Part shown: positions 43,698-64,000 of the stretch, in pieces | Layout: the number at the start of each line of letters is the position of its first letter | Position numbering within the stretch: position 1 is the first letter of the stretch | DNA from: a virus | DNA length: 64,000 bases | IMG/VR virus record: IMGVR_UViG_3300019487_000024 | Span: 1-64,000 of that record | Reading direction: 5' to 3' (one strand) | Notes under the pieces: model-generated | What the model was told of the DNA's origin: nothing | Seen by the model: only the letters and a program-made list of their open reading frames with translations | Databases searched by the model: none | Translations under genes and position numbers: made by a program

Positions 43698-43703
43698 GCT
43701 AGA

Positions 43704-44606: not shown

Positions 44607-46913
44607 ATGAGCAAAGGTATATCACCAGCCGAAGCTGACTTCTGGTTGGATACTGATAAGTATGCCAACTTCTTTGAAGAGCAACTAGACCCAAATAAGG
44701 GTCTGGTCTTCAGCATAGATATGGTTCGCCTTTCATCCATCAGAAAGGCAATCTCCAACTTTGTTCGCATTCTCACCCGCAAAAACATCCCGGTCTATTT
44801 CAATGACATGGACGCCAACGTCAACTTTGGTGGGAAGATCATCTATATCTCGGCGAAGATATTGAACAAGCAGGACTTTGATGTAGCAGTTGGACAAGCA
44901 CTCCACGAAGCTGCCCACACCCTCAAGACCGATTTTGATACCGTAAAGCTGGCATGGACCAATATCCCACACAAGATATTTCAACTGTCCGACTCAAAAG
45001 GAATCCGCCGTGCATCATTGGAGAAATTCATTCACACCACTTGGAACGTCATTGAAGACCGCTACATTGATGACTACGTGTTCAATTCGGCACCGGGCTA
45101 CCGTGGATACTATGTCTCGCTCTATGACCGATTTTGGCACTGTCCAGAAGTAGATGAAAATCTCTTGAGTGATAAGTTTAGGTATCCTAGCTTGGATTCC
45201 TACATGTTCCGAATCATCAACTTCACCAATGATAACACGGATTTGCTTGCTCTTCCACGCTTGGATGAAATTGCCGACGTGATTGACATTGAGAACATAA
45301 GCCGATTAAAGACAACTCAAGACCGAGTTAAGACGGCGTTTGAAGTTGTTGAGATTGTCTTGAACTGTCTTGACGTAAATCCACCACAAGCAGGAAAAGG
45401 AACTCCAAACAAAGGAAAGGGAAAGAACCTTGCTCGCCCCGAAGATTTTTTCGACTTTGATGGTGAAGAAGGCGAAGGAGACCCCCAAGAGTCCGATGGT
45501 TCTGGCAAAGAGTCCACCCCATCCGAAAGTCCACAAGAGGAAAAGGAAGTGGGGAATAATCCGAAGGATGAATCAAAGGATGTTGATGTTGGAAAGCAAA
45601 TGGTAGAGGAAATTTCCGACGTAATGAGCGGGCGTGACCAGACACCGGAGATTCTCAAGGAGAACAAAGATGTCGTGAATAAGGTGTCCGAGGACGAGCT
45701 TTCCGATGGAGAAGTCAAAGAAATCAAGAACATGGTTGAACAGCAGAGGAAGTTTCTGCTTGGGGAATTGCCGAAGGAAGTCGTTACGCCAGAACAGAAA
45801 CAGCTACTTGACTTAATTGAAAAGCATGGCATATTACTCGTGAAAGTTGATGCACCCACTCTCCTAGCAGGAGATGACAAGAACTTGAAAGTGGATTGTA
45901 TTGTGGTTCAGAAGATGACCAAAGAACTCATATTGGCGGGACAAGAAGTATTCCCTCTCTGTGGAGTCATGAAGCTTGGAAATGAGACGCCCGACCCTCC
46001 CAAAGAAAACGCCGAAGCAGTCAAAAAGGGCATAGTGCTTGGCACCAAGCTCGGTAGAAAACTTCAAATCCGAAACGAAATCAATCCCACCAAGACAATC
46101 CGAAAGAAGTGGGGAAAGATTCATCGTCGTCAACTTCATGAAGCAGCATTTGATGCGGAGGATTTGTTTTACAAAATCACCATTGACGAACATCAGAAGG
46201 CAACCCTCCACATTACAGTTGACGCCAGCGGGTCTATGTCAAGAGGCAACAAGTGGACACAAACCATGATTGCCGTGGTTGCCATCTGCAAGGCGGCATC
46301 CATGATTGACAATGTTCACGTCACGGTTTCATTCCGGTCCACACAGAATGTTGGAATGACTTGTTTGCCGCATATCATTCTCGCCTACGATTCAAAGGTG
46401 GATAAGTTCTCCAAAGTCCGAAACTTGTTCCCATATCTCAGTCCCAACGGCTATACGCCAGAAGGATTGGCATTCAGTGCCATCATGAATCTGTTTGAGA
46501 ACATTACTCCCGACGAAACGGATCGTTATTTCCTCAATCTCTCCGATGGTGAGCCATGCTATGCTATCAAGGTCGCATCGACAGGAATGCACATTTCATA
46601 TCAAGATGAAGTGGGCGTAACCCATACCAAGGGGCAGGTAGATAAAATAAGACGCCACGGAATTGAAATCCTGAGTTACTTCATTGATGAAGATTATGAA
46701 GGTCCATTGGGCAAGGTAAATAAAGAAACAAAGCCCGCAGACATTGCCAAGGCTAAAGAAACTCAGAAGGAATTGGACGAAACGCCACTACGAAAAAACT
46801 TCCGCAAAATGTATGGTAAGAACGCACAATTCATCAATGTTGAAAGCATAGTTGACTTGGCTCGTACAATTAACCGACTTTTTTTAACAAAGCAAAATGA
46901 AAAAAGGACTTGA
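44607..46913 (+). CDS. CobT-like VWA protein with HEAAH metallopeptidase-like motif
   Basis: 768 residues, the ATG directly abutting the ATPase stop. The N-terminal part has GQALHEAAHTLKTDFD (HExxH-type motif HEAAH at about 100-104), as in metallopeptidases. A Glu/Asp/Ser-rich linker spans about 280-330. The C-terminal part is a von Willebrand A domain with MIDAS motif VDASGSMSRG (DxSxS at about 539-543) and a later LNLSDGEP acidic site. MoxR-VWA partners are known from cobaltochelatase (CobS/CobT) and from protein-complex remodelling systems. Having both HEAAH and VWA in a phage protein suggests a chelatase or protease-remodeller. Its last codon overlaps the next promoter's -35. Confidence 0.8.
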   Translation: MSKGISPAEADFWLDTDKYANFFEEQLDPNKGLVFSIDMVRLSSIRKAISNFVRILTRKNIPVYFNDMDANVNFGGKIIYISAKILNKQDFDVAVGQALHEAAHTLKTDFDTVKLAWTNIPHKIFQLSDSKGIRRASLEKFIHTTWNVIEDRYIDDYVFNSAPGYRGYYVSLYDRFWHCPEVDENLLSDKFRYPSLDSYMFRIINFTNDNTDLLALPRLDEIADVIDIENISRLKTTQDRVKTAFEVVEIVLNCLDVNPPQAGKGTPNKGKGKNLARPEDFFDFDGEEGEGDPQESDGSGKESTPSESPQEEKEVGNNPKDESKDVDVGKQMVEEISDVMSGRDQTPEILKENKDVVNKVSEDELSDGEVKEIKNMVEQQRKFLLGELPKEVVTPEQKQLLDLIEKHGILLVKVDAPTLLAGDDKNLKVDCIVVQKMTKELILAGQEVFPLCGVMKLGNETPDPPKENAEAVKKGIVLGTKLGRKLQIRNEINPTKTIRKKWGKIHRRQLHEAAFDAEDLFYKITIDEHQKATLHITVDASGSMSRGNKWTQTMIAVVAICKAASMIDNVHVTVSFRSTQNVGMTCLPHIILAYDSKVDKFSKVRNLFPYLSPNGYTPEGLAFSAIMNLFENITPDETDRYFLNLSDGEPCYAIKVASTGMHISYQDEVGVTHTKGQVDKIRRHGIEILSYFIDEDYEGPLGKVNKETKPADIAKAKETQKELDETPLRKNFRKMYGKNAQFINVESIVDLARTINRLFLTKQNEKRT

Positions 46914-50715: not shown

Positions 50716-51987
50716 TCAAAGGATAGTAAAGTTGATGTCGTCTATGGGAGGATTTTTTACAATCAGGCTGTCCTGAATGTGGTTTGTAATGCGATTGATG
50801 GTAAGAACTCCGTTGGCACATTCATACTGCCCCGGTTCGGCAGTGTGAATTATGTCATTCAGGTGAAGAATTGTTTGGTCGGTGAAAACATTCGGAGCGG
50901 CTTTGGAAAAATCCAAGTCCAATACGATTTCATCGTCAATTGCCGCCTCCACAAAAACATCTTCATCCAGTCGGTAATACTTTTTGTAAAGCTCCCATTG
51001 TAGCTGGTTAATATCCAAGAGTTGATTTGCAAACTCATGAAGTTGCTTCAATGATGCTTGAAGATTCTGTCGTATTTCTGGATTATCAACGAAAATCCGG
51101 CTGAAACGAAAGTGGTTTTGAAAAATTCCGCTTGCATCATTCCACTTCACGTTTTTGAGGTTTGCTGCTACGGGATATTTGTATTCCTTTGTGGCGTCAA
51201 ATGCGGTGTCGTGTTTGAAATGTGGCCACTTTCGTAGAAAGCGAGTCATTTCTACCGTATCGGCTTGTTGTTGAAGCTGTGTGCGTGCTTTTGCCTTCTC
51301 AGTCCACCATTCAATGCCACGAGAAGATGTGCAAGTGAAGTGATATACAATGGCATTCCACACTTGGTCAATTTTCACGCCCTTCATGGTGAAGCGATAT
51401 AACAAGTCTGAATCTTCACGAGACCGGCGAAAGAAAGTGTCATGTCCCCCAATGTCCAACCAATCCTTTTTATACAAACTGAAGGGAGCAAACCAAAATT
51501 GGGTCACTCGGTCGGACTTTTTCTGCTCGGCAAACTTGGAAAAAGCATCCAAGTCAAATTTTTGAGGGTCTAGCCCGAAATCATGGGTAATTTTCTCTGG
51601 AGAAGGAGGATGAAGCGGCGGTTCAATGCGGGTAGAGGAAACGATTCGTCCGGGAGCCAAATGCTTGCCCAATTCTAAATCATAAAGCGGTCCTATAACC
51701 ATGTCTGACTGCAAATACGACACAAAGTCCGTCTCAGCCATCTCAAACATCAAATTGATGTTTCGAGCATATCCAATAGGGACCGGAAGCGGGTTTATTA
51801 TAACCTTCAGGTTAGGAAAGTGCTCTTTTTGAGTCTTGAGAAATCCAACGGTATCTTGATTGTCGTTTTCTACATAAACCAAGATGGGGTGGTTTCGGTG
51901 GGAGAGGTTTTTATAAAGAGAACGAAACAACAACTCTATGTGATGCCGTTCGTTCCTTGCTGTATTGATACAAAATGTGATGTTCAT
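50716..51987 (-). CDS. family 2 glycosyltransferase
   Basis: 423 residues. The N-terminal GT-A domain reads NITFCINTARNERHHIELLF, VYVENDNQDTVGFLK, PIGYARNINLMFEMAETDFV, and YLQSDMVI, where the SDM acidic residue sits at the D-x-D nucleotide-sugar site. A later RSREDSDLLYRF is the usual (R)-E-D acceptor-side motif. The C-terminal 150 residues are helical and unassigned. It is the only clear transferase of the sugar operon, so it may place the sugar built upstream on a phage or host acceptor (DNA, glycan or virion). Confidence 0.8.
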   Translation of the reverse strand: MNITFCINTARNERHHIELLFRSLYKNLSHRNHPILVYVENDNQDTVGFLKTQKEHFPNLKVIINPLPVPIGYARNINLMFEMAETDFVSYLQSDMVIGPLYDLELGKHLAPGRIVSSTRIEPPLHPPSPEKITHDFGLDPQKFDLDAFSKFAEQKKSDRVTQFWFAPFSLYKKDWLDIGGHDTFFRRSREDSDLLYRFTMKGVKIDQVWNAIVYHFTCTSSRGIEWWTEKAKARTQLQQQADTVEMTRFLRKWPHFKHDTAFDATKEYKYPVAANLKNVKWNDASGIFQNHFRFSRIFVDNPEIRQNLQASLKQLHEFANQLLDINQLQWELYKKYYRLDEDVFVEAAIDDEIVLDLDFSKAAPNVFTDQTILHLNDIIHTAEPGQYECANGVLTINRITNHIQDSLIVKNPPIDDINFTIL

Positions 51988-52850
51988 GCCAATGCTTCCA
52001 CCATTCGCTTAATTCCGGCATCCATACCAATCAGGTTTAGGTTTTGACTTCTAAGTCTTCCACCGTCACCCGTGTAAGGATGGTCTTTTTCCACTTGCTT
52101 AACAACAACATTGATTGGAACGTTCATTGCCTTGCAAATCTTCGCACCAACGTCGGCAAGGGTTTCTTTATGCCCCATGTCTTGTTCATAAACCAGATTC
52201 ATGTGACAAAGCTCTTTAGAGCGAGTTTTCAAAACGTGATCTATGACGACAGCAACATCATCCACAAAAAAGAAATCCATCTTCTTGTTTTTTTCAATCT
52301 CAATCGGAAGTCCTTCCTTTAGGCGAAGGATTGATCGCTTGATAAATCGAAAGTCGGGTTCATCTGGACCAAAACATCCAAACAACCGAAGAAGATATGG
52401 TTCGGACAATTCCACTTCATCTTCGTTGTACTGTCCCATGCCCAAGGCTCGCTTTGCTATTATGTTTTTGGAGAGTCCGTATAAATCAACCGGCCAAGAC
52501 TTGTAAAGTTCTTCTTCGTCCACTTGGTCTATATCAAAGCGTCTGTCAAATTCTGCCCCCGAACCAATAATGATGGTTGGTCTGTAATCATCAATCCAAG
52601 TGAGGACTTCATACATTTTGATGTTGTCCACAAAATCTTGATGTTGGTTTTGGGATGCAAAATGACCTTTGAATCCGGTGTGGACGATAGCAGTTGGGCA
52701 ATGCTTATTGAGATACATCATGCATTTCCCAAGGTCGGTCATGTCCAATTCTTGACGGGTTGGTGCCAGAACATCATGCCCAAGACTTCTAAGAGCACGG
52801 GCGACGTTTCGACCAACAAATCCTCCCCCACCAGTGACTAATGTTCTCAT
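51984..52850 (-). CDS. NAD-dependent sugar epimerase/reductase (Fcl/ColC-like SDR)
   Basis: 288 residues, extended SDR. NAD motif TGGGGFVGRNVARAL (about 6-20), RQELDMTDLGKCMMYL, IVHTGFKGHF and the catalytic Y-x-x-x-K as YGLSK (about 124-128). The ELD-(M/L)-TD segment and glycine-rich HTGFKGHF resemble GDP-fucose synthase and ColC, which epimerise and reduce 4-keto sugars: the final step after a 3-dehydrase. Start overlaps the upstream gene by four bases. Confidence 0.78.
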   Translation of the reverse strand: MRTLVTGGGGFVGRNVARALRSLGHDVLAPTRQELDMTDLGKCMMYLNKHCPTAIVHTGFKGHFASQNQHQDFVDNIKMYEVLTWIDDYRPTIIIGSGAEFDRRFDIDQVDEEELYKSWPVDLYGLSKNIIAKRALGMGQYNEDEVELSEPYLLRLFGCFGPDEPDFRFIKRSILRLKEGLPIEIEKNKKMDFFFVDDVAVVIDHVLKTRSKELCHMNLVYEQDMGHKETLADVGAKICKAMNVPINVVVKQVEKDHPYTGDGGRLRSQNLNLIGMDAGIKRMVEALA

Positions 52851-53323
52851 TTTACAAGGTTCATGTAAGACGGACGACCGTTGAACAGGTAATGGTGCAG
52901 CAAATTTTGCATATCAACCTCGGTGGTCGGCTTGAATAATACCAAATTCTGAAAAGGAGTCAACACCGAAATATCTTCTTCTGCCCAATGGGTATATCCA
53001 AGGTATCCGTAGTCACGATCACGCCCTCCACCGGCAATTTTGATGGGCAAAGACTCGTATTGCATGAAGTTTCGGATGAATTCAAACGGACGAAAGACTG
53101 CAAATGAGGAAATGGAATAGCAAACTGGAAGTTTTCCTTCCATTGCCATACCCGCTGCACAAGCAATCATCAATTGTTCGGCTGAACCTACGTTAAAAAA
53201 GCGATTTGGATAGGTATCACGAACTTTGTCCCATAAACCATAGCCCATGTCGGCAGTGATAAGCACGATGGAATCGTTCTCACCCATCTTTGTCAGTAAT
53301 GCGTCAGCAAATGCACGTCTCAT
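52847..53323 (-). CDS. transketolase-type PYR subunit, short form
   Basis: 158 residues from ATG 53323. It is the pyrimidine-binding domain of transketolases/E1 beta subunits: IVLITADMGYG, RFFNVGSAEQLMIACAAGMA with the catalytic Glu in GSAEQ, and GYLGYTHWAEEDISVLTPFQ. It ends right after this domain (PSYMNLVK), so the C-terminal swivel domain of normal subunits (about 120 residues) is missing. It pairs with the TPP-binding subunit at 54112, from which it is separated by an inserted endonuclease whose stop overlaps this ATG. Either a naturally minimal enzyme or a truncation. Confidence 0.78.
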   Translation of the reverse strand: MRRAFADALLTKMGENDSIVLITADMGYGLWDKVRDTYPNRFFNVGSAEQLMIACAAGMAMEGKLPVCYSISSFAVFRPFEFIRNFMQYESLPIKIAGGGRDRDYGYLGYTHWAEEDISVLTPFQNLVLFKPTTEVDMQNLLHHYLFNGRPSYMNLVK

Positions 53324-54048
53324 AAAACTTGATATATTAAAGGAATGGTATGAACTCCTCGTTTGAATTTTCTCCAATCATTCTCCCAAATATATTTTAC
53401 TTTGTACCCAAGAGATTTCATTTTGGTTAGTTTCTCGTATGTTTTCTTTAACAAGATTCCATATTTCAATTTGGTGTCAGGATTTAGGTCTGTTTGTTTG
53501 TATATTTCGGGATTTCCGTGCCAATAATCACCAAGAAATTCATAAACCGTATTGTTTTCCCGATCATATCCATCCACTTTCTTCTTTTTCCATTTTGGAA
53601 GCGAGTAGTTTGTAGTTTTAATTCCCATCCACAATAAAAAGTCACGTTCAAGTCTTGAAATTTTATGTAAACAAGTAGGACACTTACTACCACGCAAATG
53701 ATGATATGGACTTTGAATAAACGTGCCATGTTTATGACAGATTATTTTTACCTTGTGGTGAGAATGAATATAGTTGACCTTAGAATAATTATATTCATTT
53801 TTATGAACTTTGTTTGCCTTAGTTATAAATTCATAGTTTGAATACAAATATCTTCCGGAACATTTGATACAACCTTTCCCCATTAAATGGTCATTTGGTC
53901 TTTGAGAAAACATGTGTTGACATGCATTACATTTAATGTCCACTTTTTCTCTGCTTGATTTGTACAACACATGAGAATAATCATATTTTTTGCCATGAAT
54001 TTTTATGGCTTTTTCGATAAATTCTTTTGTGTTAGAAAACTTTGGCAT
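53320..54048 (-). CDS. VSR-like homing endonuclease between transketolase subunits
   Basis: 242 residues. Two zinc modules (IHGKKYDYSHVLY...CNAC...H-L-M-G-K-GCIKC; HKNEYNYSKVNY...CHKHG...HHLRGSKCPTC) as in 27357, then the nuclease core VYEFLGDYWHGNPEIYKQTD with KVKYIWENDWRKFK. Strongly AT-rich compared with its neighbours. Its TGA overlaps the ATG of the transketolase PYR gene, so expression of the interrupted operon remains coupled. Confidence 0.85.
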   Translation of the reverse strand: MPKFSNTKEFIEKAIKIHGKKYDYSHVLYKSSREKVDIKCNACQHMFSQRPNDHLMGKGCIKCSGRYLYSNYEFITKANKVHKNEYNYSKVNYIHSHHKVKIICHKHGTFIQSPYHHLRGSKCPTCLHKISRLERDFLLWMGIKTTNYSLPKWKKKKVDGYDRENNTVYEFLGDYWHGNPEIYKQTDLNPDTKLKYGILLKKTYEKLTKMKSLGYKVKYIWENDWRKFKRGVHTIPLIYQVL

Positions 54049-54111
54049 TACAATGGTTCCATTTATCCAAGTGAGTTTTTACGAAAACTTCCTTACTATC
54101 TTTGAATAATT

Positions 54112-54753
54112 TTACTTCAGAATTTCAAGTGCAACTGCATATTCTTCCGGGCACATTATTTTGTAGTGAGCATTTTGACCTTTGAGAAACGAAAATTCCT
54201 CAGTAGCTTGTTGTGTGTCTCCAATGCAGGCAATGTTTCCGATGGAAAATGCTGCCAAACGTTTTTGAAGCTTATCATATGGGATTTCGCAATATGCTCC
54301 ATATCCATTATGAACCACGTAAACCTTGATGTTCTTCACGGGATGGTCCGCAATGAATCGAAGGGCTTCCCAAATGACTCCTTCGGCACATTCGCCATCA
54401 CTTACCATCACATGCACGCCACGATTGGGGTTTGCAAGTGCCCGACCTACAGCGGCGGCTAATCCCATACCCAAACTTCCCGTTGAACACCAAAGATGAT
54501 TCGCTTCGTCCAGATGTGGGTGCCCGCCATGCTTCTTGAACAACTCCTCAGCATTATGTCCGTGATGTTTTTCCAGCACGACGTATTGTGCCAAAGAAGC
54601 ATGTCCGTTAGAAAGGATGAAAATGTCATCCACAGGCTTGTTTCTGAAAATCCAGTCAATGATGTCCACACAGGACAAATAGCTCCCCAAGTGAGAGAGT
54701 TTGTTCTTGTAGGCAATCTCAATGATGCGTTTCTTTAGGTCTTTGTTTACCAT
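54112..54753 (-). CDS. transketolase-type TPP-binding subunit
   Basis: 213 residues. The thiamine diphosphate domain of transketolases: LSHLGSYLSCVDIIDWIF, ILSNGHASLAQYVVL, GSLGMGLAAAVGRAL, and the metal motif SDGECAEGVIWEALRF (usual form GDGE-x-x-EG), with the following N as VHNGYGAY where DNN is common. Two deviations from consensus (SDG for GDG, HNG for DNN) leave metal ligands plausible. With the PYR gene it would form a two-subunit enzyme that moves a C2 unit, for example making sedoheptulose 7-phosphate or adding a branch to a keto sugar. Confidence 0.82.
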   Translation of the reverse strand: MVNKDLKKRIIEIAYKNKLSHLGSYLSCVDIIDWIFRNKPVDDIFILSNGHASLAQYVVLEKHHGHNAEELFKKHGGHPHLDEANHLWCSTGSLGMGLAAAVGRALANPNRGVHVMVSDGECAEGVIWEALRFIADHPVKNIKVYVVHNGYGAYCEIPYDKLQKRLAAFSIGNIACIGDTQQATEEFSFLKGQNAHYKIMCPEEYAVALEILK

Positions 54754-55724
54754 ACGAAATTCTTCTTGTAGTATTCCACAATCTCAGGAAGTTTTTGATC
54801 TAGGGAACATTGATTCTTCCACCCAAGCTTTTTCAGCTTACTATCATCCAAGCTATAACGTACGTCTTGTCCGTCACGGGAATATGTGAAGTCACAGAAT
54901 TCCAACAATCGGTCCATGTCGTTGTCGGGATTGAAATCAACGGTTGACGGATGGAACGTGAGAGCATAGACCTTCTTCACAATGTCAATGTTGAAACATT
55001 CTTCTGGACCGGAAATGTTGTAAATTTCATTCGTCACACCGGCATCAATGATGGTCATGACAGCATCGGCAGTGTCTTGAGCATGAAGCCATACACGTCT
55101 TGGCGATCCTCCATTGTGCAATGGAACCTTGCTTTCCAAATGAAAGCACTTGCATGTTTTTGGAATGAGTTTTTCGACGTATTGTCCAACACCATAGTTG
55201 TTCGTGGGTCGGACAATAACATACGGAACCTTGAAAGTCCGTGCCCAAGCGAGAATCAACATGTCAGCCGCAGCTTTCGTAGCCGAGTAGGGATTGCTTG
55301 GCTTCAACAAGTCGGTTTCCGTATGAGACCCCGATTCAATGTCTCCATATACTTCATCGGTACTGAAATGAAGCAGGGTGGGCATCTTTAACCGTTTGGT
55401 ACGGATAAGATCGAGAAGGTGCTTTACTCCATTGACATTTGAGTGAAGAAAGGCATCGCTGTTGGTTATGGAATTGTCAACGTGGCTTTCGGCGGCAGTA
55501 TTGATGACATAATCACAATCATAGAGGCTTTCCAAATTGCAAATGTCTTCCTTGATAAACTTGAAGTTTGGACCGTAGCAATGAAAGTCAATCAATCGGT
55601 GTGGTTGAGCCGCATAGGTTACTTTATCGACGCCAATGACATACCACCCACGACGAAGGCAGGCTTCGGTCACATAGGCTCCGATGAATCCAAGGCATCC
55701 CGTAACGTAAACGATTTTTTTCAT
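54747..55724 (-). CDS. NDP-hexose 4,6-dehydratase (RmlB-like)
   Basis: 325 residues, extended SDR. VTGCLGFIGAYVTEACL (NAD), DKVTYAAQPHRL, ESHVDNSI, FSTDEVYGDIE, catalytic Y-x-x-x-K in NPYSATKAAADML, and RPTNNYGVGQYVEKLIPK are the dTDP-glucose 4,6-dehydratase pattern. It yields the 4-keto-6-deoxy sugar needed by both 3-dehydrases and the RmlC-like epimerase of this operon. The nucleotide carried (dTDP, CDP or GDP) cannot be told. Overlaps the TPP subunit gene by seven bases. Confidence 0.87.
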   Translation of the reverse strand: MKKIVYVTGCLGFIGAYVTEACLRRGWYVIGVDKVTYAAQPHRLIDFHCYGPNFKFIKEDICNLESLYDCDYVINTAAESHVDNSITNSDAFLHSNVNGVKHLLDLIRTKRLKMPTLLHFSTDEVYGDIESGSHTETDLLKPSNPYSATKAAADMLILAWARTFKVPYVIVRPTNNYGVGQYVEKLIPKTCKCFHLESKVPLHNGGSPRRVWLHAQDTADAVMTIIDAGVTNEIYNISGPEECFNIDIVKKVYALTFHPSTVDFNPDNDMDRLLEFCDFTYSRDGQDVRYSLDDSKLKKLGWKNQCSLDQKLPEIVEYYKKNFVW

Positions 55725-55727
55725 AAC

Positions 55728-56378
55728 TTATTGGTAGTTGGCTTCCAGCTCTTCCTGCGTATAAGTATAAGGCAGTTTCTTCACAAACACTTGCCATCCA
55801 CCATGCAAAACTTGAGTGTGTCCGTCATACGCTGTAAGAAAACTGTCCACGGCGAGCTTCGGCTTCTGCTTTTCGTCTGTAGTATGAGCACCCCATCCAT
55901 AATCATCAAAAATCAGGATGCCGTTGTCCTTGAGGATGTACCAAGCGAGCACGGCATCTTGCATAACATCAATTGCCAAGTGAGAGCCATCAATGTAAAC
56001 ATAGTCGGCGAACCCTTTGGTTTGACCGTTATGAGTCAACGAACGGAGAACATCGTAGGAGCTTCCCTTGATGAAATGGATGTTGGGGAAGGAACCAATG
56101 TTATGGCGAAGGCATTCGTTATCATTGATGTCAATGGCATAGTGAACGCTTCCCGGACCATTGGCAATTCTCTGAGCACAAAACACGGCACAGTCGCCAT
56201 GCAAGACTCCAATCTCAACACCAACCACGTTTGGTCTGCCTGCAATGAAGGCAAGATGGTTTTGCCAGTCGGGAATCCACTTCTCAAAGAAATTTGAGCC
56301 GAAGAACCCTTCGGGGCGTTTCATGAAGGCTGGATATGTGTAACTTGTGATGTCTCGTTTAAGTGTGTATTCGCTCAT
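55728..56378 (-). CDS. SAM-dependent methyltransferase (class I)
   Basis: 216 residues. Motif I VVGVEIGVLHGDCAVF (E-x-G-x-x-x-G), motif II acidic YAIDINDN, and DYVYIDGSHLAIDVMQDAVL, then GILIFDDYGWG, the pattern of the small Methyltransferase_24/CmcI-like group often found in polysaccharide and glycopeptide clusters. Target probably a sugar hydroxyl or the finished glycan. Starts four bases before the end of the RfbH-like gene's coding sequence. Confidence 0.78.
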   Translation of the reverse strand: MSEYTLKRDITSYTYPAFMKRPEGFFGSNFFEKWIPDWQNHLAFIAGRPNVVGVEIGVLHGDCAVFCAQRIANGPGSVHYAIDINDNECLRHNIGSFPNIHFIKGSSYDVLRSLTHNGQTKGFADYVYIDGSHLAIDVMQDAVLAWYILKDNGILIFDDYGWGAHTTDEKQKPKLAVDSFLTAYDGHTQVLHGGWQVFVKKLPYTYTQEELEANYQ

Positions 56379-57730
56379 AACGTTTTGAAGAAGTTGTCAA
56401 CCTGTTCCTTTACATAGTCCAATTGAACGGGAGTTATCACTGGACTTGTGCCCAAGAAAAAGGTGTCTGTTGTGACCTTGGTCGCCGCACTAAACAATTG
56501 TTTGGCAACGTGTTGTGATTTATGGAATTCGCCATACATATCCATCCATTTGATGTCATTGTATGCTGGCTGCAATAAGAGATTGCCGCCGAAATAGTTT
56601 CGAGTCTGAATCTTACGATCCTCAAGATACGCAGTGAACTTGGAACGTTTGAAGACAGATGGATTCTTTACAGTAACGGGGAACGCAAACCACGAAGGGT
56701 CAGAGTTCTCGGTTGCTTTATGAACAATGAAAAACTCTTCATAGGGAGCGAAGATTTCTGTCAGTATCTTGTGATTTCTCCTTCTGAGAGAATGAATCTC
56801 GTCCAACTTATTCAGTTGAACAACTCCCATTGAGCATTGCAACTCGATTGGTTTCAAGTTGTAGCCCACATTGTCATAGACATACTTGTGATCGAAAATT
56901 TCATCGGGAATGGCGGGGAGCCAATTGCTGAAGCGGCATCCACAAGAACCCTTGATTGAAAGATTTGCCTTTCGTCCCACGCAGTAGCATCCACGACCCC
57001 ACTCACGGAAGCTTCGTGCTACTTTTTCTTGTTCGGCTGTTTTGCAAGCCACGAATCCGCCTTCACCCATTGTCATATGGTGGGCGGGATAGAAAGAGCA
57101 CGTTGCCATGTCACCATCGGTTCCGACAGGCTTTCCATCGTAGGTTGAACCAAGGGCGTCACAACAATCTTCCAAGAGAATGATGTCTGGGCGAAGCTCT
57201 TTGATTATCTCTTTGAGCTTCTTCATGTTCGGAGGGTTTCCGAGAACATGGGCAAAGGTAATGACACGGGCATCGGTGTTTCTGAGGGCTGTAGCAACTT
57301 GCTCCAGATTCAAATTGAGAGAATCCAGTTCAATGTCAACAAAGACAGGCGTAAGTCCACATTGAAGAACCGGATTGACTGTTGTTGGGAAGCCAGCAAC
57401 AGGAACGATGACTTTCTCTTCGTCTTTCAGACCATAGAGACGTTTGGCAGTCTCCATCATTAAAAGATTGGAGCTTGACCCGCTGTTGGTCACTATTCCA
57501 TATTGTTTTCCAAGAAGGGGTGGGAAGTTCTTTTCAAACTTCATGGCATCTTCCCCAAGGACAAGCCATTCGTTTAGCAAAGCATTTGTAGCTGCCACAA
57601 ACTCAGCCGAATCAAAGTATGGACCAGCATATTGAACCCAATCTTTTCCGGGGGTCCATGTCTTTGCTGCGTGCTTTTCCCCAATGTATTCGGAGACAAG
57701 CTTCAGGATGTCTTCTTTGCTGACTGGCAT
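56375..57730 (-). CDS. rfbH: RfbH-like NDP-4-keto-6-deoxyhexose 3-dehydrase (PLP, Fe-S)
   Basis: 451 residues from ATG 57730. It has the DegT/aminotransferase fold, but the PLP Lys is replaced by His in SFYPAHHMTMGEGG (about 212-225), the hallmark of 3-dehydrases. Iron-sulfur Cys candidates are C190 (EDCCDALG), C248 and C250 (GRGCYCVG) and C263/C265 (GSCGCRF), close to the RfbH pattern C-x57-C-x-C-x7-C but with five extra residues before the last. It removes the 3-OH of CDP-4-keto-6-deoxyglucose with help of an Fe-S reductase (RfbI/AscD type), not found in the window. First step to 3,6-dideoxy or branched sugars. Confidence 0.88.
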   Translation of the reverse strand: MPVSKEDILKLVSEYIGEKHAAKTWTPGKDWVQYAGPYFDSAEFVAATNALLNEWLVLGEDAMKFEKNFPPLLGKQYGIVTNSGSSSNLLMMETAKRLYGLKDEEKVIVPVAGFPTTVNPVLQCGLTPVFVDIELDSLNLNLEQVATALRNTDARVITFAHVLGNPPNMKKLKEIIKELRPDIILLEDCCDALGSTYDGKPVGTDGDMATCSFYPAHHMTMGEGGFVACKTAEQEKVARSFREWGRGCYCVGRKANLSIKGSCGCRFSNWLPAIPDEIFDHKYVYDNVGYNLKPIELQCSMGVVQLNKLDEIHSLRRRNHKILTEIFAPYEEFFIVHKATENSDPSWFAFPVTVKNPSVFKRSKFTAYLEDRKIQTRNYFGGNLLLQPAYNDIKWMDMYGEFHKSQHVAKQLFSAATKVTTDTFFLGTSPVITPVQLDYVKEQVDNFFKTL

Positions 57731-57731
57731 A

Positions 57732-58679
57732 TCAAATGTCGGAGAACGGGCAATTGGTGTTCTTAATGATTGGGCAAGCCGCAAGAACTTCACGAATAGA
57801 ATCATCCAATGAAAATTGGGGTCTCCACCCAAGCGATTCCAACTTGTCATTTGAGACAATGTAGTTTCTTTGGTCGGGGTCTTTGTTGATTTCCGATGTA
57901 GTGATGAAAAAGTCGGGTACTTGTTTCTTGATGGCGAGACAGAGTTCCATTTTGTTTACGTTGGCACTGGTATTGCCGACGTTATAGACTTGTCCTTGCA
58001 TTGAAGGAGTTTTGAGAGCCAATGACATAGCACTTACTACGTCTCGGATGTGTACGAAGTTTCTAGCGAAGTGGGATTCAAATAAGACAATGAACTTGTC
58101 GTTCCATGCTCTCCAAGTGAAATCATTGACGAGCAAATCCATACGCATTTTGCGGGAGACTCCCATTACTGTAGCCAAACGAAATGACGTTGCATTTCCA
58201 TTTTGCATGAGAGCCTTTTCAGCCGCACATTTGGTTTCACCATAAAGAGAAATTGGTCTTAATGGAGTCTCTTCCGTGCAGAAGATGGCTTTTCCATCCG
58301 AATGCTCTCCCAATCCATATCCAGAATTGGTTGTGGCATAAATGACGATTTGATCCTTGCTAACCTTGCTGGCTAGAAACTCCGAACTCTCTTGGTTTAC
58401 CTGTTTGGTTTCGATGGGGAATCGGTTGCAAAGGGGCATTCCAACGTAGGCGGCGAGATTGATGATTGCATCGTGTTGGGAAATTAAAAAGGAATAGCGG
58501 GCTGTATCACGAACATCGCCATAAACAAATCTGAAGTTAGGATTGGAACAGTTTTCCAAAATCCCATGTTGACGATGAATCAGATTGTCCAACACCGTGA
58601 CCGAATAACCTTGGTCAAGAAGATTGGGAGCCAATATGTTTCCAATGTAGCCAGCACCACCAGCGATCAGTATTCTCAT
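57732..58679 (-). CDS. NAD-dependent epimerase/dehydratase (extended SDR)
   Basis: 315 residues. IAGGAGYIGNILAPNLLDQG (NAD), YGDVRDTARY, NLAAYVGMPLC, YATTNSGYGLG, catalytic YGETK, and a late DDSIREVL helix. General UDP-glucose 4-epimerase/4,6-dehydratase/reductase group; the exact reaction cannot be read. Given the operon, a C4 reduction or epimerisation of a deoxy sugar is likely. Overlaps its upstream gene by four bases. Confidence 0.8.
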   Translation of the reverse strand: MRILIAGGAGYIGNILAPNLLDQGYSVTVLDNLIHRQHGILENCSNPNFRFVYGDVRDTARYSFLISQHDAIINLAAYVGMPLCNRFPIETKQVNQESSEFLASKVSKDQIVIYATTNSGYGLGEHSDGKAIFCTEETPLRPISLYGETKCAAEKALMQNGNATSFRLATVMGVSRKMRMDLLVNDFTWRAWNDKFIVLFESHFARNFVHIRDVVSAMSLALKTPSMQGQVYNVGNTSANVNKMELCLAIKKQVPDFFITTSEINKDPDQRNYIVSNDKLESLGWRPQFSLDDSIREVLAACPIIKNTNCPFSDI

Positions 58680-59098
58680 AGTTTCTCTAAAAGTTTGCTT
58701 GAAGCATACAACTTTGGAAGAGAAATTGCAACATATTTTATTCCCAATTCTTTACACAATATGACTTCAGCAGACTCGGCGTTGATTCCTACACGGTCTC
58801 CGCTGTTAAAAAAATACATCTCGTCATCAGGAAACTCTTTCCTGACCTTTTTTATACTCTCACAGACCGTTTTGTCCTTGTCCACAGAAATCCACGCCTC
58901 GCTAATCGGTTTGAGGGTCGCAACGATGTTTCGGCGGTGATCTTGGTCCATGAACACTCTGGAACCCTTGACCGTTACTTGATGGTCATTATTTATGATA
59001 GCAATTAAGTAATTGCATTGATCCTTGGCGGCTAGGAAGTACTGAATGTGCCCGTAGTGCAAGGGATTGAAATAACCCGATACGATTCCAATTTTCAT
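58676..59098 (-). CDS. cytidylyltransferase-like sugar-phosphate nucleotidyltransferase
   Basis: 140 residues. Nucleotidyltransferase HxGH motif in YFNPLHYGHIQYFLAAKD (about 10-27), VTVKGSRVFMDQDHRR (the K-x-S-x(n)-R region), and FFNSGDRVGI. The closest groups are glycerol-3-phosphate cytidylyltransferase and the heptose-1-phosphate adenylyltransferase domain of HldE. Next to the HddA-like kinase it probably activates a heptose or related 1-phosphate with CTP or ATP. Confidence 0.8.
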   Translation of the reverse strand: MKIGIVSGYFNPLHYGHIQYFLAAKDQCNYLIAIINNDHQVTVKGSRVFMDQDHRRNIVATLKPISEAWISVDKDKTVCESIKKVRKEFPDDEMYFFNSGDRVGINAESAEVILCKELGIKYVAISLPKLYASSKLLEKL

Positions 59099-60048
59099 GA
59101 GTGGATTCTGGATACTCCGGTGGATTCAAACTTGAACGGAAGAACATCGTCTCCAAACACTTCAAGTAGTTTGGCTTTGGTGTGTGGGGTGCAGATAGCC
59201 AAAACAAATCCACATCCTCCGCTGCCAAGTAACTTAGCACCATACGCACCGTTATCCATTACAGTCTTGACAGTATGGTCAACTTTTGGGGTAGAAATCA
59301 ATGGTGACAAGTCTTTCTTCTGTCTCCACGTTTCATATAGAAGGTTCCCAATACCCTCAATGTCTTCTTCGACGAAGCGGTCATATGCTTCACGAGCAAG
59401 CGACAAGATTTGCATCTTATCTTTGTGGTTATGAGATTTGGCAATCTCTTCTTGGCTTCTTTGCTCGTTGGTGTAAATTAGAACCATTGAGTCTTCAAGC
59501 TCTTGCTTGAAATCCTCGGTGATGGGGAGCGGCTTGACCGAAAAGTCGCCCGTGGAGTGAATCTCAATTGAGTTGAGTCCACCGTAAGCTGGCCAAATTG
59601 AGTCTTGAATACCTCCCGCCTCTTTCAAGATTTCTCTTTCTACCTTGATGGCATCATATACCAACTTCTTTTTGTCTATGGGGCGTCCATAGAGTTGATT
59701 GATTAGATAGAGAAGTCCAACACAGTAGGAAGAAGACCCACCAAGACCCGTCCTTGATGGAATGTCGGCAAAGGAGAAGAGTTCCACGAAATCTTTGACA
59801 TCACCATACTTCAAAGTTTCACGAATGAGTGGGTTTTGGATAGAATCAAATTCCTTGACATAATCCATCTTGGAATAAACGACCAATGTCTCTTTGGATA
59901 GAATCTTGGGACGAAACCGCATTGACAAGTAGGAATACTTGTCGATTGTGGTGCCAATCAAAAACGAACCGTGTTCTTTGTAAAACGATTCATAATCAGT
60001 TGACCCACCAAACAGGGAAATGCGTAATGGCGTCTTGGCGATTATCAT
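59095..60048 (-). CDS. hddA: GHMP kinase, HddA-like (heptose 7-phosphate kinase)
   Basis: 317 residues. RISLFGGSTDYESFYKEHG at the N-terminus, ATP loop SRTGLGGSSSYCVGLLYLIN (about 98-117), and AKLLGSGGCGFVLAICTP near the C-terminus are as in D-glycero-alpha-D-manno-heptose 7-phosphate kinases. These act after a sedoheptulose-7-phosphate isomerase (GmhA) and before a phosphatase (GmhB); neither is in the window. L-fucokinase-like substrates are an alternative. Coupled by four-base overlaps on both sides. Confidence 0.8.
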   Translation of the reverse strand: MIIAKTPLRISLFGGSTDYESFYKEHGSFLIGTTIDKYSYLSMRFRPKILSKETLVVYSKMDYVKEFDSIQNPLIRETLKYGDVKDFVELFSFADIPSRTGLGGSSSYCVGLLYLINQLYGRPIDKKKLVYDAIKVEREILKEAGGIQDSIWPAYGGLNSIEIHSTGDFSVKPLPITEDFKQELEDSMVLIYTNEQRSQEEIAKSHNHKDKMQILSLAREAYDRFVEEDIEGIGNLLYETWRQKKDLSPLISTPKVDHTVKTVMDNGAYGAKLLGSGGCGFVLAICTPHTKAKLLEVFGDDVLPFKFESTGVSRIHS

Positions 60049-60560
60049 TGGTCACGTTTGGAAAGAATTGGAGTTTGAGTTGGCCAGATTAGATTGAACA
60101 ATGGGTCGTTCCACTTAACCGACAACTGGTCCGATTGGGGAGTGAATCCATGACTCAGGCGATAGTGAAACAAAGCATCGTCGCTCATTACGCAATGACC
60201 ATTGACACAGCCGGGAGGAAGAAAGGCTTGAAATCGGTTTCCGGCAGTCAGCACGACTTCTTCTTTCCCCTTATATGTTGAAGACTTGGGGTTCATGTCT
60301 ATCACCACAAAGTAAACTTCTCCATGTAACACTTCGATGAGTTTCCAATTGGTGAAGTCACCATGTAATCCCCGCAAAACGTTCTTAGTAGAATGAGCAT
60401 ACGAATCCACTAGGAAATCAATTTCTCGCCCAAACAGTTGGTTGTAAACCTCTTTGTTGTAGGCTTCGTAGTTGTAGCCCCGATGATCGGAGAATGCTTC
60501 GGTACGAATGAGAAGAAAGTCATGTATCTTCTCGCTTTTATACTCTACTTTCGGATTCAT
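60045..60560 (-). CDS. rfbC: RmlC-like sugar 3,5-epimerase (cupin)
   Basis: 171 residues (family about 180). STKNVLRGLHGDFTNWKLIE carries the R-G-x-H catalytic motif, then LHGEVYFVVIDMNPKSSTYK and the FLPPGCVNGHCVMSDDALF cupin strand. The YNQLF region replaces the usual F-x-Q-x-N of RmlC. It epimerises C3 and/or C5 of a 4-keto-6-deoxy sugar nucleotide. Some relatives epimerise only one carbon, as in heptose pathways. Confidence 0.85.
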   Translation of the reverse strand: MNPKVEYKSEKIHDFLLIRTEAFSDHRGYNYEAYNKEVYNQLFGREIDFLVDSYAHSTKNVLRGLHGDFTNWKLIEVLHGEVYFVVIDMNPKSSTYKGKEEVVLTAGNRFQAFLPPGCVNGHCVMSDDALFHYRLSHGFTPQSDQLSVKWNDPLFNLIWPTQTPILSKRDQ

Positions 60561-61723
60561 ATGCTGTTCAAGATTTGACAGAGTTCCAAGATTTTACTGT
60601 GTTCCAGTTCTGGATAGTTTCCAATATACCATCCGAAATGATGGACGAAATTGCAGACTGGATAACTCAGATATTCATTTCCATAAAGCTTTCGCAAATA
60701 GGGTTGGGCAAGTTGATTGCCTCCACCAGACATACCACGGCGGAATTCAATTACGTTTTGTGAAAGAACTTCTTCAACGTAGTTTCTCTTTGCAACGTCG
60801 GGAGAAGCCAACAAAAGGGTGAACGCATAGTTGCTATTTCCTTCACGATCAAAGTCGGTGTAATACTTGGTCTTATCAAGGTTGTCCAAGAATACATCCA
60901 AGTTTTCCTTACGCTTCACGTTATTTTCGTCCAAGCGTTTCAATTGATTCAGTGCCATGACTGCATTGATTTCTGTAGAACGCATGTTATAGGAAGCAGC
61001 AAGGAAGATGAAATCCTTATTCAATTCGGGATTGGCAGCAACGATGTTGTTTTTCATCACTACATCGTCCATTTCCCGTGCCATAGAATGAGAGCGAAGC
61101 GAACGACAAAAGTCGTAGAACAATGGGTCGTTGGTGCAAATCATTCCTCCTTCAATCGAAGTCATATGATGTGCGTAATAGAACGAGAAATTGGATGCAT
61201 ATCCAAAGGAACCTAGTTTCCGACCATTGAAAGTGGCTCCATGAGATTCACACACGTCTTCAATGATTTTGATGCCTTGATTTTCGCATACATCCAACAA
61301 CTTTTGTGACAAGCCATTGTATCCGAGGATATGAGTCAACAAAATCGCCTTTGTTCTTGGGGTGATCTTCTTGATAATCTCGTCCACATCCGCCGCCAAG
61401 TTCTTTTGGTTAATGTCCACAAACACCGGCGTAAATCGGGCATGAAGAATTGCCGCTACGTCGGAAACCCATCCCAAAGGAGAGGTAATAATTTCTCCAT
61501 CACCATAAAGTTCCTTCAAGGCAAGGAGAGTCAATATGTTTGCAGAACTTCCAGAGTTAACGAACACCGAATACTTGACGCCCAACCATTTACTCCATTC
61601 TTCCTCAAATTCCCGAACCTTCTTACCATTGGTAAGAATGGGGATGGGGCGTTGAGATAGGAACTGTACAAGGACATCCATATCCGACTCTACAATGTTG
61701 TTATGCATCAGTGGCCAATTCAT
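60557..61723 (-). CDS. colD: ColD-like NDP-4-keto-6-deoxyhexose 3-dehydratase (PLP)
   Basis: 388 residues from ATG 61723 (the TTG at 61735 overlaps the previous gene). DegT-family fold with VNSGSSANILTLLALKE, IIEDVCESHGATFNGRKLG and FSFYYAHHMTSIEGGM, where His (about 186) replaces the PLP Lys. This is the ColD arrangement, which makes GDP-4-keto-3,6-dideoxymannose and needs no Fe-S cluster; no Fe-S Cys set is present. It is the second, separate 3-dehydrase type of the operon beside the RfbH-like enzyme. A DegT aminotransferase is excluded if the His reading is right. Confidence 0.87.
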   Translation of the reverse strand: MNWPLMHNNIVESDMDVLVQFLSQRPIPILTNGKKVREFEEEWSKWLGVKYSVFVNSGSSANILTLLALKELYGDGEIITSPLGWVSDVAAILHARFTPVFVDINQKNLAADVDEIIKKITPRTKAILLTHILGYNGLSQKLLDVCENQGIKIIEDVCESHGATFNGRKLGSFGYASNFSFYYAHHMTSIEGGMICTNDPLFYDFCRSLRSHSMAREMDDVVMKNNIVAANPELNKDFIFLAASYNMRSTEINAVMALNQLKRLDENNVKRKENLDVFLDNLDKTKYYTDFDREGNSNYAFTLLLASPDVAKRNYVEEVLSQNVIEFRRGMSGGGNQLAQPYLRKLYGNEYLSYPVCNFVHHFGWYIGNYPELEHSKILELCQILNSI

Positions 61724-61724
61724 A

Positions 61725-63257
61725 TCAATCTCCAAGAATCTTTCTCTTTAGTTTGATTTTGGTCATTTCCAAAATGTTCTTTGCTTCCTCGGCACCAAAG
61801 ATTCTTTCAATCCTCGCCAAGAATGCCGGATCAGTGTGATACTTCACAAATGCTTCATCACGGAACTTTAGAACCTCGGCAGCAGTCAAGTGCTTGGTTG
61901 GCATCGGAACCGTTGTATAGGAGTGGAATGAGTATCCTGAATACTCCTTCGGCAATTCATATCCATTCTCCAAGGCATCCTTGTAGAGCTTACTACCGGG
62001 GAATGGCATAACTGCATAGGCATTCCACCCCGACGTACAAAGCTCAAGGCTAAGATCAAGTGTTTTCTGCATTGATGCCATATCGTCTTCAGGAAGCCCG
62101 AAGAGATAGTTGGCAAGGACTTCAATACCCGCCTCTTGAACGGATTCAATTACTCGGCGAATGTCGGTGTCTTCAAACTTTCCTTTGGAGACTTCCAAAC
62201 GGACATTACGGTCTCCGCTTTCAATTCCGAGGCAGAGCCAACGGAAGCCTGCTCTACGCAAGAGCTTCAAAAGTTCTGGATTTTTACCAACCGTGTCAAC
62301 ACGAGAATAAGCCCAAATGAGAACCTTGTCGGCATATGGTTTTGCTGCCAATGCTTCACAGATTGGGACGTAGTTCGCAGGACTGAGCAAAAACATTTCG
62401 TCGGTGATACGAATGGTGTAAACACCCGCAGCGACTAGCTTGTCAATCTGATTGACAACAAATTCGGTGGACCAGTGACGCATCACACGATAATTGCTTG
62501 CGACACCGATTGGATCGTTGTCTGTACGGTTTAGGATGTTAATCATACAGAAGTCACATCCGAACTTACATCCAAGCGATGTATAGAGCGTAGCATACGG
62601 ACTGCGTTTAGCAGGGTCGTAATTAGCGTGCCACATTGGAGAGCGGTACAAATCAAATGGACGTTCCTTCTGAGGAAGCAAGTCCCACGCATATCCCGGC
62701 AAATCCTTATCCAAAAGAATCTGAGGAACCAAACGCTCGGCGGGAGTCAGCGTAGGAACACCGTTTTTGCGAAAGCCGATCCCCTTGATGTTATCCATAT
62801 TGGTTACATCAATGGATGGCTCCTTGAGCAAGTTATGAAGAGCATAGACACCTTCATTGGTAAATACAAAGTCCACGTTCTTTTCATCTTCCAATGTTTG
62901 AAGTGGGAGAGCTTGCATGTAAGACCCCAAGAACCCAAGAGGGATGGTTACGCCTGCACCCTTGATGTCATTGGCAAGCTTTACGGCACCGCTCATACTG
63001 ACAGAGCCAGCGTTGACGTTCTGCCCATAAACAACAAAGCACAAAAGGCGTGGGTTGAGTTGGTTGATCCGCTCAATGATTTTGGAATTTGGAAGCTTTT
63101 CAGCATTCACGTCAATCAATCCAACTTTGAATCCTTTACTGCGGCAAGATTCGGCTAGTAAGAGTGCCCAAGTTGGTGGTTCGATGGATGAATAGCTGGT
63201 TGCCAAATCTTGATAGATTTCGGAGGCATTGCCGGGAGCGATGAATAAAACGTCCAT
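61725..63257 (-). CDS. B12-binding-domain radical SAM enzyme
   Basis: 510 residues. N-terminal Rossmann-like cobalamin domain (DVLFIAPGN, GLIDVNAEK, GFLGSYMQALPLQ), radical SAM cluster motif C-x3-C-x2-C in SLGCKFGCDFCMIN (Cys 230, 234, 237), IESGDRNVR, and LPGLPEDD-like LFGLPEDDMASM. Such enzymes methylate unreactive carbons or rearrange sugars; in sugar clusters they do C-methylation or deoxygenation. Cobalamin dependence here is notable because the phage also has class II RNR. The classical D-x-H-x-x-G B12 motif is not obvious, so base-off binding without His is likely. Confidence 0.85.
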   Translation of the reverse strand: MDVLFIAPGNASEIYQDLATSYSSIEPPTWALLLAESCRSKGFKVGLIDVNAEKLPNSKIIERINQLNPRLLCFVVYGQNVNAGSVSMSGAVKLANDIKGAGVTIPLGFLGSYMQALPLQTLEDEKNVDFVFTNEGVYALHNLLKEPSIDVTNMDNIKGIGFRKNGVPTLTPAERLVPQILLDKDLPGYAWDLLPQKERPFDLYRSPMWHANYDPAKRSPYATLYTSLGCKFGCDFCMINILNRTDNDPIGVASNYRVMRHWSTEFVVNQIDKLVAAGVYTIRITDEMFLLSPANYVPICEALAAKPYADKVLIWAYSRVDTVGKNPELLKLLRRAGFRWLCLGIESGDRNVRLEVSKGKFEDTDIRRVIESVQEAGIEVLANYLFGLPEDDMASMQKTLDLSLELCTSGWNAYAVMPFPGSKLYKDALENGYELPKEYSGYSFHSYTTVPMPTKHLTAAEVLKFRDEAFVKYHTDPAFLARIERIFGAEEAKNILEMTKIKLKRKILGD

Positions 63258-63260
63258 AAC

Positions 63261-64000
63261 TTATTGGTTGAGGAACGAAACGATTCGTTCGTGTAACTGA
63301 GGCACCGAAAGACCGTTCATATCAAGAACTTCCTCTCGTGTGCCGTTATCAAATATGTATCGTTCAGGAAGCCCCAAACGCAAAATTTTGTGGTTCAGTC
63401 CAAGGTCACATACAACCTCACAAACCGAAGAACCAAATCCACCGGAAAGTGTTTGTTCTTCGAGGGTTATGACGTGTGAGTACGGATTAAAAGTATTCAC
63501 AAAGACCTGAAGATCGATGGGTTTAATCTTCCAAAGGTCAACTACACCCACGTCTAAATTGTGACTTTCCTTCAAACTGTCACGGAGCTTTAAGGCTCGT
63601 GGCAATAGGTGTCCACTGGTCGTAATACATACTTTGTGACCTTGATGTAAGGTACACATGCCACGTTCCACCGTGTCTGTCGTGGCATCCTTGTAGAAAT
63701 CCACACAGGATTTGTCGGTGCCACGCTCCAAACGAACATAGCGGAACTTTGGCTTGTCCAAGGTCAACTTGACCAACGGACGAATGAGATTGTTGTTGGC
63801 GGGAGAGTGAATCTCCAAACCAAGTAGCGAACGCATGTAAGCAATGTCTTCGTTTGGCTCATGGGCAGGACCGGACGGAACATATCCGAGACCGACACCA
63901 CATGCCAAGAAGGTGATTGGATTGTTTGCCATTGCACAGGAGTAACGCATCTGCTCAAAGCATCGTGCCGCCCACGAACCCATCGTATAAACATAGACTT
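63261..64000 (-). CDS. transketolase-type PYR/C-terminal subunit (5' end missing)
   Basis: The frame is open through the right edge (codons upstream of the ATG at 63983 continue in frame), so the start is outside. Visible are the end of the PYR domain (NPITFLACGVGLGYVPSGPA, HEPNEDIAYMRSLLGLEIHS) and the complete C-terminal domain (CITTSGHLLPRALKLRDSLK, VVDLWKIKPID, ITLEEQTLSGGFGSSVCEVV). This is the full design of a transketolase/E1-beta subunit, unlike the short copy at 52847. A partner TPP-binding subunit may lie beyond the window. Confidence 0.82.
   Translation of the reverse strand, partial: VYVYTMGSWAARCFEQMRYSCAMANNPITFLACGVGLGYVPSGPAHEPNEDIAYMRSLLGLEIHSPANNNLIRPLVKLTLDKPKFRYVRLERGTDKSCVDFYKDATTDTVERGMCTLHQGHKVCITTSGHLLPRALKLRDSLKESHNLDVGVVDLWKIKPIDLQVFVNTFNPYSHVITLEEQTLSGGFGSSVCEVVCDLGLNHKILRLGLPERYIFDNGTREEVLDMNGLSVPQLHERIVSFLNQ

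Follow-up and report, generated by a model that had tools for sequence, protein, structure and literature searches.

We analysed a window of 64,000 nucleotides, bases 1-64000 of the 100,409-bp IMG/VR virus record IMGVR_UViG_3300019487_000024, which carries much of an island of sugar genes. This island is two nucleotide-sugar modules within the variable glycan island of an uncultured contractile-tailed phage, and not one pathway. Module A (50716-57718) comprises an RfbH-type 3-dehydrase, a methyltransferase, an RmlB-type 4,6-dehydratase, a split transketolase, a short-chain dehydrogenase/reductase (SDR) and a family 2 glycosyltransferase (GT2). Module B (57732-65916) comprises an SDR, a nucleotidyltransferase, an HddA-like kinase, an RmlC-type epimerase, a ColD-like dehydrase, an AprD4-like radical S-adenosylmethionine (SAM) protein, a second transketolase pair and a Gmd-like dehydratase. 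The original prediction had joined at least twelve of these genes into a single pathway; this fails, as related phages carry them in separate cassettes. The interpretation we favour, and hold to be reasonably probable, is that both modules would make branched sugars, module A by the yersiniose scheme with a transketolase in place of YerE and module B on a heptose. A wider proposal, on which we are evenly divided, is that one branched-sugar cassette is common to phages and to bacteria of sea and soil. Its carboligase slot would be exchangeable: depending on whether it is filled by a transketolase pair, an acetolactate-synthase enzyme of the YerE/JanthE type or an E1-type pair, different carbon branches would be placed on a single conserved dideoxy-keto-sugar backbone. 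Module A would then contain the first transketolase known to join a C2 unit to a nucleotide-linked ketone.

Outside the island the contig encodes a tail sheath, a UvsX-like recombinase, a DnaB-like helicase and a ribonucleotide reductase, a contractile-tailed phage set. The island lies on the minus strand, from 50716 to approximately 75.3 kb of the contig, and more glycosyltransferases follow up to 80.1 kb. Between 50716 and 63257 there are 14 complete same-strand sugar-related open reading frames (ORFs) and one homing-endonuclease-like ORF, whilst a 15th sugar ORF runs to the window end; most adjacent island ORFs overlap by 4 bp. Profile searches (Pfam, NCBIfam) recovered every enzyme class previously listed: Transketolase_N, Transket_pyr, GHMP/HddA, cytidylyltransferase-like, dTDP-glucose dehydratase-like, RmlC, SDRs, RfbH, ColD-like, Methyltransf_24, radical SAM with B12-binding and a weak GT2. 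The single transketolase-type pair of that list proved to be two split transketolases, the second spanning the window end (Table 1).

The occurrence of module A in related phages was established by using its transketolase N subunit (TK-N) as query in a protein search of viral contigs, which returned two contigs, to which alignment searches added more. The core of RfbH, RmlB, TK-N, the transketolase PYR-domain subunit (PYR) and SDR is intact in six phage lineages, namely the window, L008/L009, L013, L014, L015 (= L168) and L171. The genes flanking the island on both sides in L008/L009 are those of the window phage, and the island itself holds RfbH, Methyltransf_24, a second methyltransferase, RmlB, TK-N, PYR, SDR, GT2 and other glycosyltransferases. 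HddA, nucleotidyltransferase, ColD-like and radical-SAM genes were not found with module A in related phages other than L168: no kinase or ColD-like gene is present at the module A locus of L008/L009, L013, L014 or L171, and no HddA-like kinase occurs anywhere on the L008/L009 contigs. In L168 module A adjoins module B, as in the window, and the flanks of L171 showed no match to the window phage. Because the core recurs without the module B genes, and does so amid unrelated flanks in L171, module A is a unit of its own. A search of 795 sampled genomes from two phyla gave no bacterial source for its transketolase at E <= 1e-26, which is a weak negative, and a close-relative scan of genome contigs likewise revealed none.

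Module B is far from confined to this phage. A viral scan with the ColD-like dehydrase gave at least 68 loci, of which the 54 with sufficient flank were scored for genes within 8 kb of the anchor gene; the HddA-like kinase was present in 52, the radical-SAM gene in 47 and an SDR in 46. A bacterial scan by radical-SAM alignment identified 293 confirmed relatives, from which the best 80 were retained and 62 were usable for gene-content counts. Within the same distance, ColD-like and kinase genes each occurred in 52/62 and an SDR in 49/62. Many of the best 80 loci are in SAR11. Most contigs with module B have no module A, and phages with T4-like gene neighbourhoods carry a compact cassette (radical SAM, thiamine enzyme, kinase, dehydrase, SDR) with no glycosyltransferases. 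Moreover, tblastn placed at least one of GmhA, GmhB and HddC near the radical-SAM gene in 54 of the best 80 of the 293 bacterial loci. NCBIfam supports these assignments in two representatives, a Bradyrhizobium copy with GmhA and an HddC-like gene and a SAR11 copy with an HddC-GmhB fusion. Since bacterial versions so often have these genes, module B probably starts from a nucleoside diphosphate (NDP)-heptose, judging by sequence. The NDP-heptose route, one of the two suggested earlier for the whole gene set, thus suits module B. We also considered bradyrhizose, the C10 sugar of photosynthetic Bradyrhizobium, as the module B product (C7 + C2 + C1 = 10). This candidate was rejected, as the radical-SAM gene was found in 3/149 Bradyrhizobium genomes and in only 1/13 genomes with photosynthetic reaction-centre genes.

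The thiamine enzyme of module B belongs to different classes in different loci. Among the 54 viral loci, 10 have a transketolase pair, 37 an E1-alpha/beta-like pair and 3 an acetolactate-synthase type, and none has two. Four lack a slot enzyme; L071 and L082 end at a contig edge beside the kinase, and the E1 pair of L015/L016 lies just past the 8-kb limit. The 62 bacterial loci divide into 27 with a transketolase pair, 31 with an E1-alpha/beta-like pair, 2 with both and 2 with neither (Fisher p 6e-13 for exclusivity, shared descent ignored). The E1-like pair was confirmed by Pfam (E1_dh and PYR only) and by PDB matches. The third type, a protein of 611 residues from the acetolactate-synthase family, has 8rph as its best solved match; this is JanthE, a YerE-like aldehyde-ketone coupling enzyme (PMC12188165). 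A closer inspection of L035 (transketolase) and L036 (E1) revealed a ColD-like dehydrase 97% identical, an SDR 98%, a kinase 95% and a radical-SAM protein 79%; therefore, one class has replaced the other on a nearly unchanged cassette. L035, L036 and L050 hinted that the radical-SAM gene is always swapped along with the thiamine enzyme, but L069 and L072 contradict this. All three classes appear in a review of enzymes that produce, or have been proposed to produce, branched sugars or tertiary alcohols from keto sugars (PMC12247030). As E1 or acetolactate-synthase types can replace the transketolase, the slot enzyme is unlikely to be meant for sedoheptulose 7-phosphate, the role it had been given in one reading of the original prediction. 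Branching of a keto sugar is the most likely role of the thiamine enzyme in module B.

The residues of the transketolases are consistent with this. In the numbering of Escherichia coli TktA, Asp155, Asn185, Glu411 and His26, 66, 100 and 473 are kept in both window transketolases, and the equivalents of His26/66/100 are invariant in the four phages from which module A was aligned. The acceptor/phosphate residues of TktA, Ser385, His461, Asp469 and Arg520, are all altered in module A, which has Gly, Gly, Leu and Lys at these positions in all four phages. The window's module B enzyme has Pro, Gly, Ser and Arg, retaining only R520. (At positions 261 and 358 the alignment is unreliable.) Equivalents of 385, 461, 469 and 520 have been named as substrate-binding residues (PMC4601599), and the E. 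coli enzyme, when engineered at 385, 469 and 520, moves away from acceptors that carry a phosphate (PMC5073344). Because catalytic and donor residues are kept and acceptor residues changed, both enzymes resemble a transketolase at the donor site but not at the acceptor site.

From gene content, module structure, slot exclusivity and these residues we infer the following substrates and step order. In module A, the RmlB-type enzyme would dehydrate an NDP-hexose at C4/C6 to an NDP-4-keto-6-deoxyhexose, which the RfbH/E1-type enzyme, with a reductase from the host, would deoxygenate at C3 to a 3,6-dideoxy-4-keto sugar. The reduced split transketolase would then move a hydroxyacetyl unit from a ketose donor to C4, the SDR would reduce the new branch, the methyltransferase may decorate the branched sugar and GT2 would transfer it. 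The other reading of the whole set, in which a 3,6-dideoxy-4-keto sugar receives a C2 unit from the thiamine enzyme, suits module A best. In module B, the HddA-like kinase would phosphorylate a host heptose phosphate at C1, with activation following. The Gmd-like enzyme would give the 6-deoxy-4-keto form, which would undergo RmlC-like 3,5-epimerisation and C3 deoxygenation by the ColD-like enzyme. The slot enzyme, whichever its class, would branch the ketone, and the AprD4-like radical-SAM enzyme would modify the product. The most likely use of the products, by analogy with sugar clusters of other phages, is glycosylation of a virion or host-surface component.

Several observations weigh against this interpretation. 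Classical E1 acts on cytidine diphosphate (CDP) sugars, unlike the module A dehydratase, which is of the deoxythymidine diphosphate (dTDP) type and scores only 56 bits against the CDP-type model. The window nucleotidyltransferase is RfaE2-like and not HddC, and the kinase reaches 130 bits on NF049969, so far under the cut-off of 600 that its heptose substrate is uncertain. Neither GmhA, GmhB nor HddC was found in the contig (for GmhA by a PF13580 family search, for GmhB by tblastn). An RfbI/AscD-type E3 reductase (PF00175) was found neither in the contig nor in six other phage records, with positive controls; the neighbouring GmhA, GmhB and Fe-S reductase that had been proposed as a check were thus not found. 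Several steps therefore need host enzymes, and the host must supply GmhA, GmhB and the NAD-binding E3-type reductase. The slot counts disregard common ancestry among loci. Ordinary acetolactate synthases score nearly level with 8rph against the third slot type, so that similarity to JanthE alone is no proof of ketone coupling. Lastly, transfer by a transketolase to a keto sugar has yet to be demonstrated in vitro (PMC12247030).

Other explanations account for parts of these data. The transketolases could be ordinary pentose-phosphate enzymes, with sedoheptulose 7-phosphate feeding a heptose pathway and all genes forming one route. The presence of an HddA-like kinase agrees with this, and GmhA/GmhB/HddC in bacterial module B loci make a heptose route plausible for that module. 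However, both pairs have lost most of the residues with which a normal transketolase binds its acceptor; elsewhere, acetolactate-synthase-type or E1-type enzymes, neither of which makes sedoheptulose 7-phosphate, occupy the same slot; and module A of related phages has its transketolase without a heptose kinase. We consider this explanation quite unlikely. Alternatively, the thiamine enzymes may act off the nucleotide sugar, for example by providing an acyl or hydroxyacetyl unit for a carrier or glycan decoration, whilst the dehydrases make a plain dideoxy sugar. E1-type and transketolase-type pairs are indeed known to donate C2 units to carriers in natural-product pathways, and sequence does not show the position of a branch. 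Yet no carrier-protein family is among the Pfam matches of the modules, the thiamine enzymes keep conserved company with 3-dehydrases, and for all three thiamine diphosphate (ThDP) classes a review describes known or proposed formation of tertiary alcohols from keto sugars (PMC12247030), which makes it unlikely. We hold it very improbable that the island is pieced together from host-derived cassettes, decaying or unrelated, whose product is useless to the phage. Glycan islands do vary strongly among related phages and the operon has been invaded by a homing endonuclease, but every ORF is intact, catalytic residues are kept, the genes are tightly coupled and the module A gene order persists in phages with unrelated flanks.

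Two branched-sugar modules, as we favour, would have partial counterparts in known systems. Module A resembles the yersiniose A and erwiniose pathways in uniting a 4,6-dehydratase, an E1-type 3-dehydrase, a ThDP carboligase and an SDR in one operon. It differs in having a split transketolase instead of YerE, an RmlB-type instead of a CDP-glucose dehydratase, and no E3 reductase gene where those pathways have an E1/E3 pair. A YerE-type ThDP decarboxylase is absent from module A, the acetolactate-synthase type occurring only in module B of other phages. GDP (guanosine diphosphate)-6-deoxy-heptose pathways with HddA, dehydratase and epimerase steps operate in Campylobacter capsules. Module B shares with these an HddA-like kinase, a Gmd-like dehydratase and an RmlC-like epimerase, and in bacteria GmhA/GmhB/HddC also, but adds a ColD-like 3-dehydrase, a ThDP carboligase and a radical-SAM protein, and in the phage lacks GmhA/GmhB/HddC. 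Only in a few antibiotics of Streptomyces has a transketolase been proposed to branch a keto sugar; split-gene transketolases are the candidates for miharamycin and amipurimycin, all from Streptomyces (PMC12247030). Like module A these are predicted to transfer a hydroxyacetyl unit to a keto sugar, whereas here the enzyme is in a phage, its PYR subunit lacks the C-terminal domain and its partner is RfbH. The E1-alpha/beta-like pair in the slot of most module B relatives recalls the alpha-keto acid dehydrogenase 2 enzymes of branched sugars, e.g. aldgamycin and kibdelomycin KbDH (PMC12247030), but has shortened subunits, phage or SAR11 hosts and heptose-pathway company.

Among phages, RfbH is common and RfbH-bearing clusters are known in cyanophages, and O-antigen nucleotide-sugar genes are on record (PMC12911398). 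In Synechococcus phage S-B43 a sugar cluster close to genes for tail fibres and replication includes an RfbH-like gene, but no transketolase, kinase or radical-SAM gene was detected in that cluster. In a collection of 50,697 phage records, the first transketolase subunit had only matches below 33% identity and the radical-SAM protein only a 23%-identity match in one phage, Streptomyces phage SF3 (two records). Within this collection the earlier statement, that the full set is not known from any described phage, stands, and we found no described cassette of this kind in the literature. Two things are new here, a branched-sugar scheme in its transketolase variant and a slot whose enzyme is exchangeable, RfbH clusters and phage nucleotide-sugar genes being known already.

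Compact natural transketolases (213 + about 158 residues) sit in these phage operons beside predicted substrate-making dehydrases. Moreover, matched phages with a different thiamine class on a near-identical cassette are a ready natural experiment, and the exchange of the enzyme among related viruses puts the transketolase reaction, long proposed, within direct reach of a test; if the slot is truly exchangeable, swapping one enzyme class changes the sugar. Since SAR11 bacteria and many phages from aquatic habitats have the cassette, branched deoxy sugars may be a widespread but uncharacterised surface chemistry in phage-host conflict.

Table 1. Genes of the two modules. Positions are those of the window unless marked as contig.
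Module	Gene product	Position	Strand	Evidence or remark
A	GT2-like glycosyltransferase	50716..51987	-	Glycos_transf_2, weak, E=9e-4
A	SDR, probable keto reductase	51984..52850	-	Epimerase family
A	Transketolase PYR-domain subunit	52847..53323	-	Transket_pyr only; no Transketolase_C domain
	Homing-endonuclease-like ORF, outside pathway	53320..54048	-	DUF4379
A	Transketolase N (ThDP-binding) subunit, 213 aa	54112..54753	-	Transketolase_N; best solved match 6yak split transketolase
A	RmlB-type NDP-hexose 4,6-dehydratase	54747..55724	-	TIGR01181 280 bits (cut-off 365); TDE, YxxxK motifs
A	Methyltransf_24 (CmcI-like) methyltransferase, accessory	55728..56378	-	Methyltransf_24 profile
A	RfbH/E1-type 3-dehydrase	56375..57718	-	NF011936 428 bits, above cut-off 423
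B	GalE-like SDR	57732..58679	-	No dehydratase motif beside YxxxK
B	RfaE2/HldE-like nucleotidyltransferase	58676..59098	-	CTP_transf_like; rfaE_dom_II 42 bits
B	HddA-like GHMP sugar-1-kinase	59095..60048	-	Best model NF049969; best PDB match 4n3o, putative heptose 7-P kinase
B	RmlC-type 3,5-epimerase	60045..60560	-	PF00908; TIGR01221 125 bits
B	ColD-like pyridoxal phosphate (PLP) 3-dehydrase (DegT family)	60557..61735	-	Best PDB match 2gms (ColD)
B	AprD4-like radical-SAM protein, B12-binding-like N domain	61725..63257	-	PF04055, PF02310; CX3CX2C at 230
B	Second transketolase, PYR + C-terminal subunit	63261..64000, continuing to contig 64202	-	Transketolase_C domain present
B	Second transketolase, N subunit	contig 64199-64963		Outside window
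B	Gmd-like dehydratase	contig 64960-65916		Outside window

Individual genes of module A vary in their conservation. A GT2 homologue (49-66% identity) closes the module in L008, L013, L014 and L168 and was not seen in L171, whilst the SDR follows the PYR gene in all relatives (26-56% identity). The Methyltransf_24 protein has a 60% identical homologue in L008 and no match in L013, L014 or L171. The model of the PYR subunit (predicted local distance difference test, pLDDT, 82) agrees with the corresponding domain in the split transketolase of C. hydrogenoformans (6yaj). The start of RfbH was placed near 57718, as against 57859 beforehand. Aligned to Yersinia E1 (3bcx/3bb8), this protein keeps the catalytic His that replaces the PLP lysine, and also the cysteines of the [2Fe-2S] cluster region, which we take to be cluster ligands. 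In module B, the ColD-like dehydrase likewise keeps His for the PLP lysine, aligned to ColD His188 and its H188 variants. AprD4, a radical diol dehydratase, is the best match of the radical-SAM protein by both sequence and fold (model pLDDT 72), with TsrM the next nearest fold; given the resemblance to AprD4, C-methylation and deoxygenation are both possible.

Some relatives of module B have unusual features. The radical-SAM ORF of L017 (15737-18265, 842 aa) shows homology to the window protein in two pieces, a possible in-frame insertion and perhaps an intein. In L024 (12086-12859) the RfaE2-like nucleotidyltransferase is extended at its N terminus by a HAD-like domain, which might serve as an in-built phosphatase for the sugar bisphosphate. 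A 387-aa gene of L072 (5487-6650), for which no family was identified, lies between the acetolactate-synthase-type enzyme and the kinase. L083 (QZIP01000015.1), binned as Parcubacteria, contains a module B up to 71% identical to that of the window, and is phage-like and possibly a mis-binned virus.

Elsewhere in the phage, a MoxR-type AAA protein adjoins a VWA-domain-like protein (window 43686-46913), a pair conserved beside the island in related phages. A 949-aa helicase-like ORF (L005:14494-17343, contig 95494-98343) has an apparent intein-like insertion. Homing-endonuclease-like genes enter the island repeatedly. The one at 53320-54048 is inserted cleanly between the TK-N and PYR genes and is not there in L008, and an HNH-like gene lies between SDR and GT2 in L013 (12011-12469). 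Further downstream in the island, an ORF at contig 73368-74564 fuses HNH_3 to a HAD phosphatase-like region.

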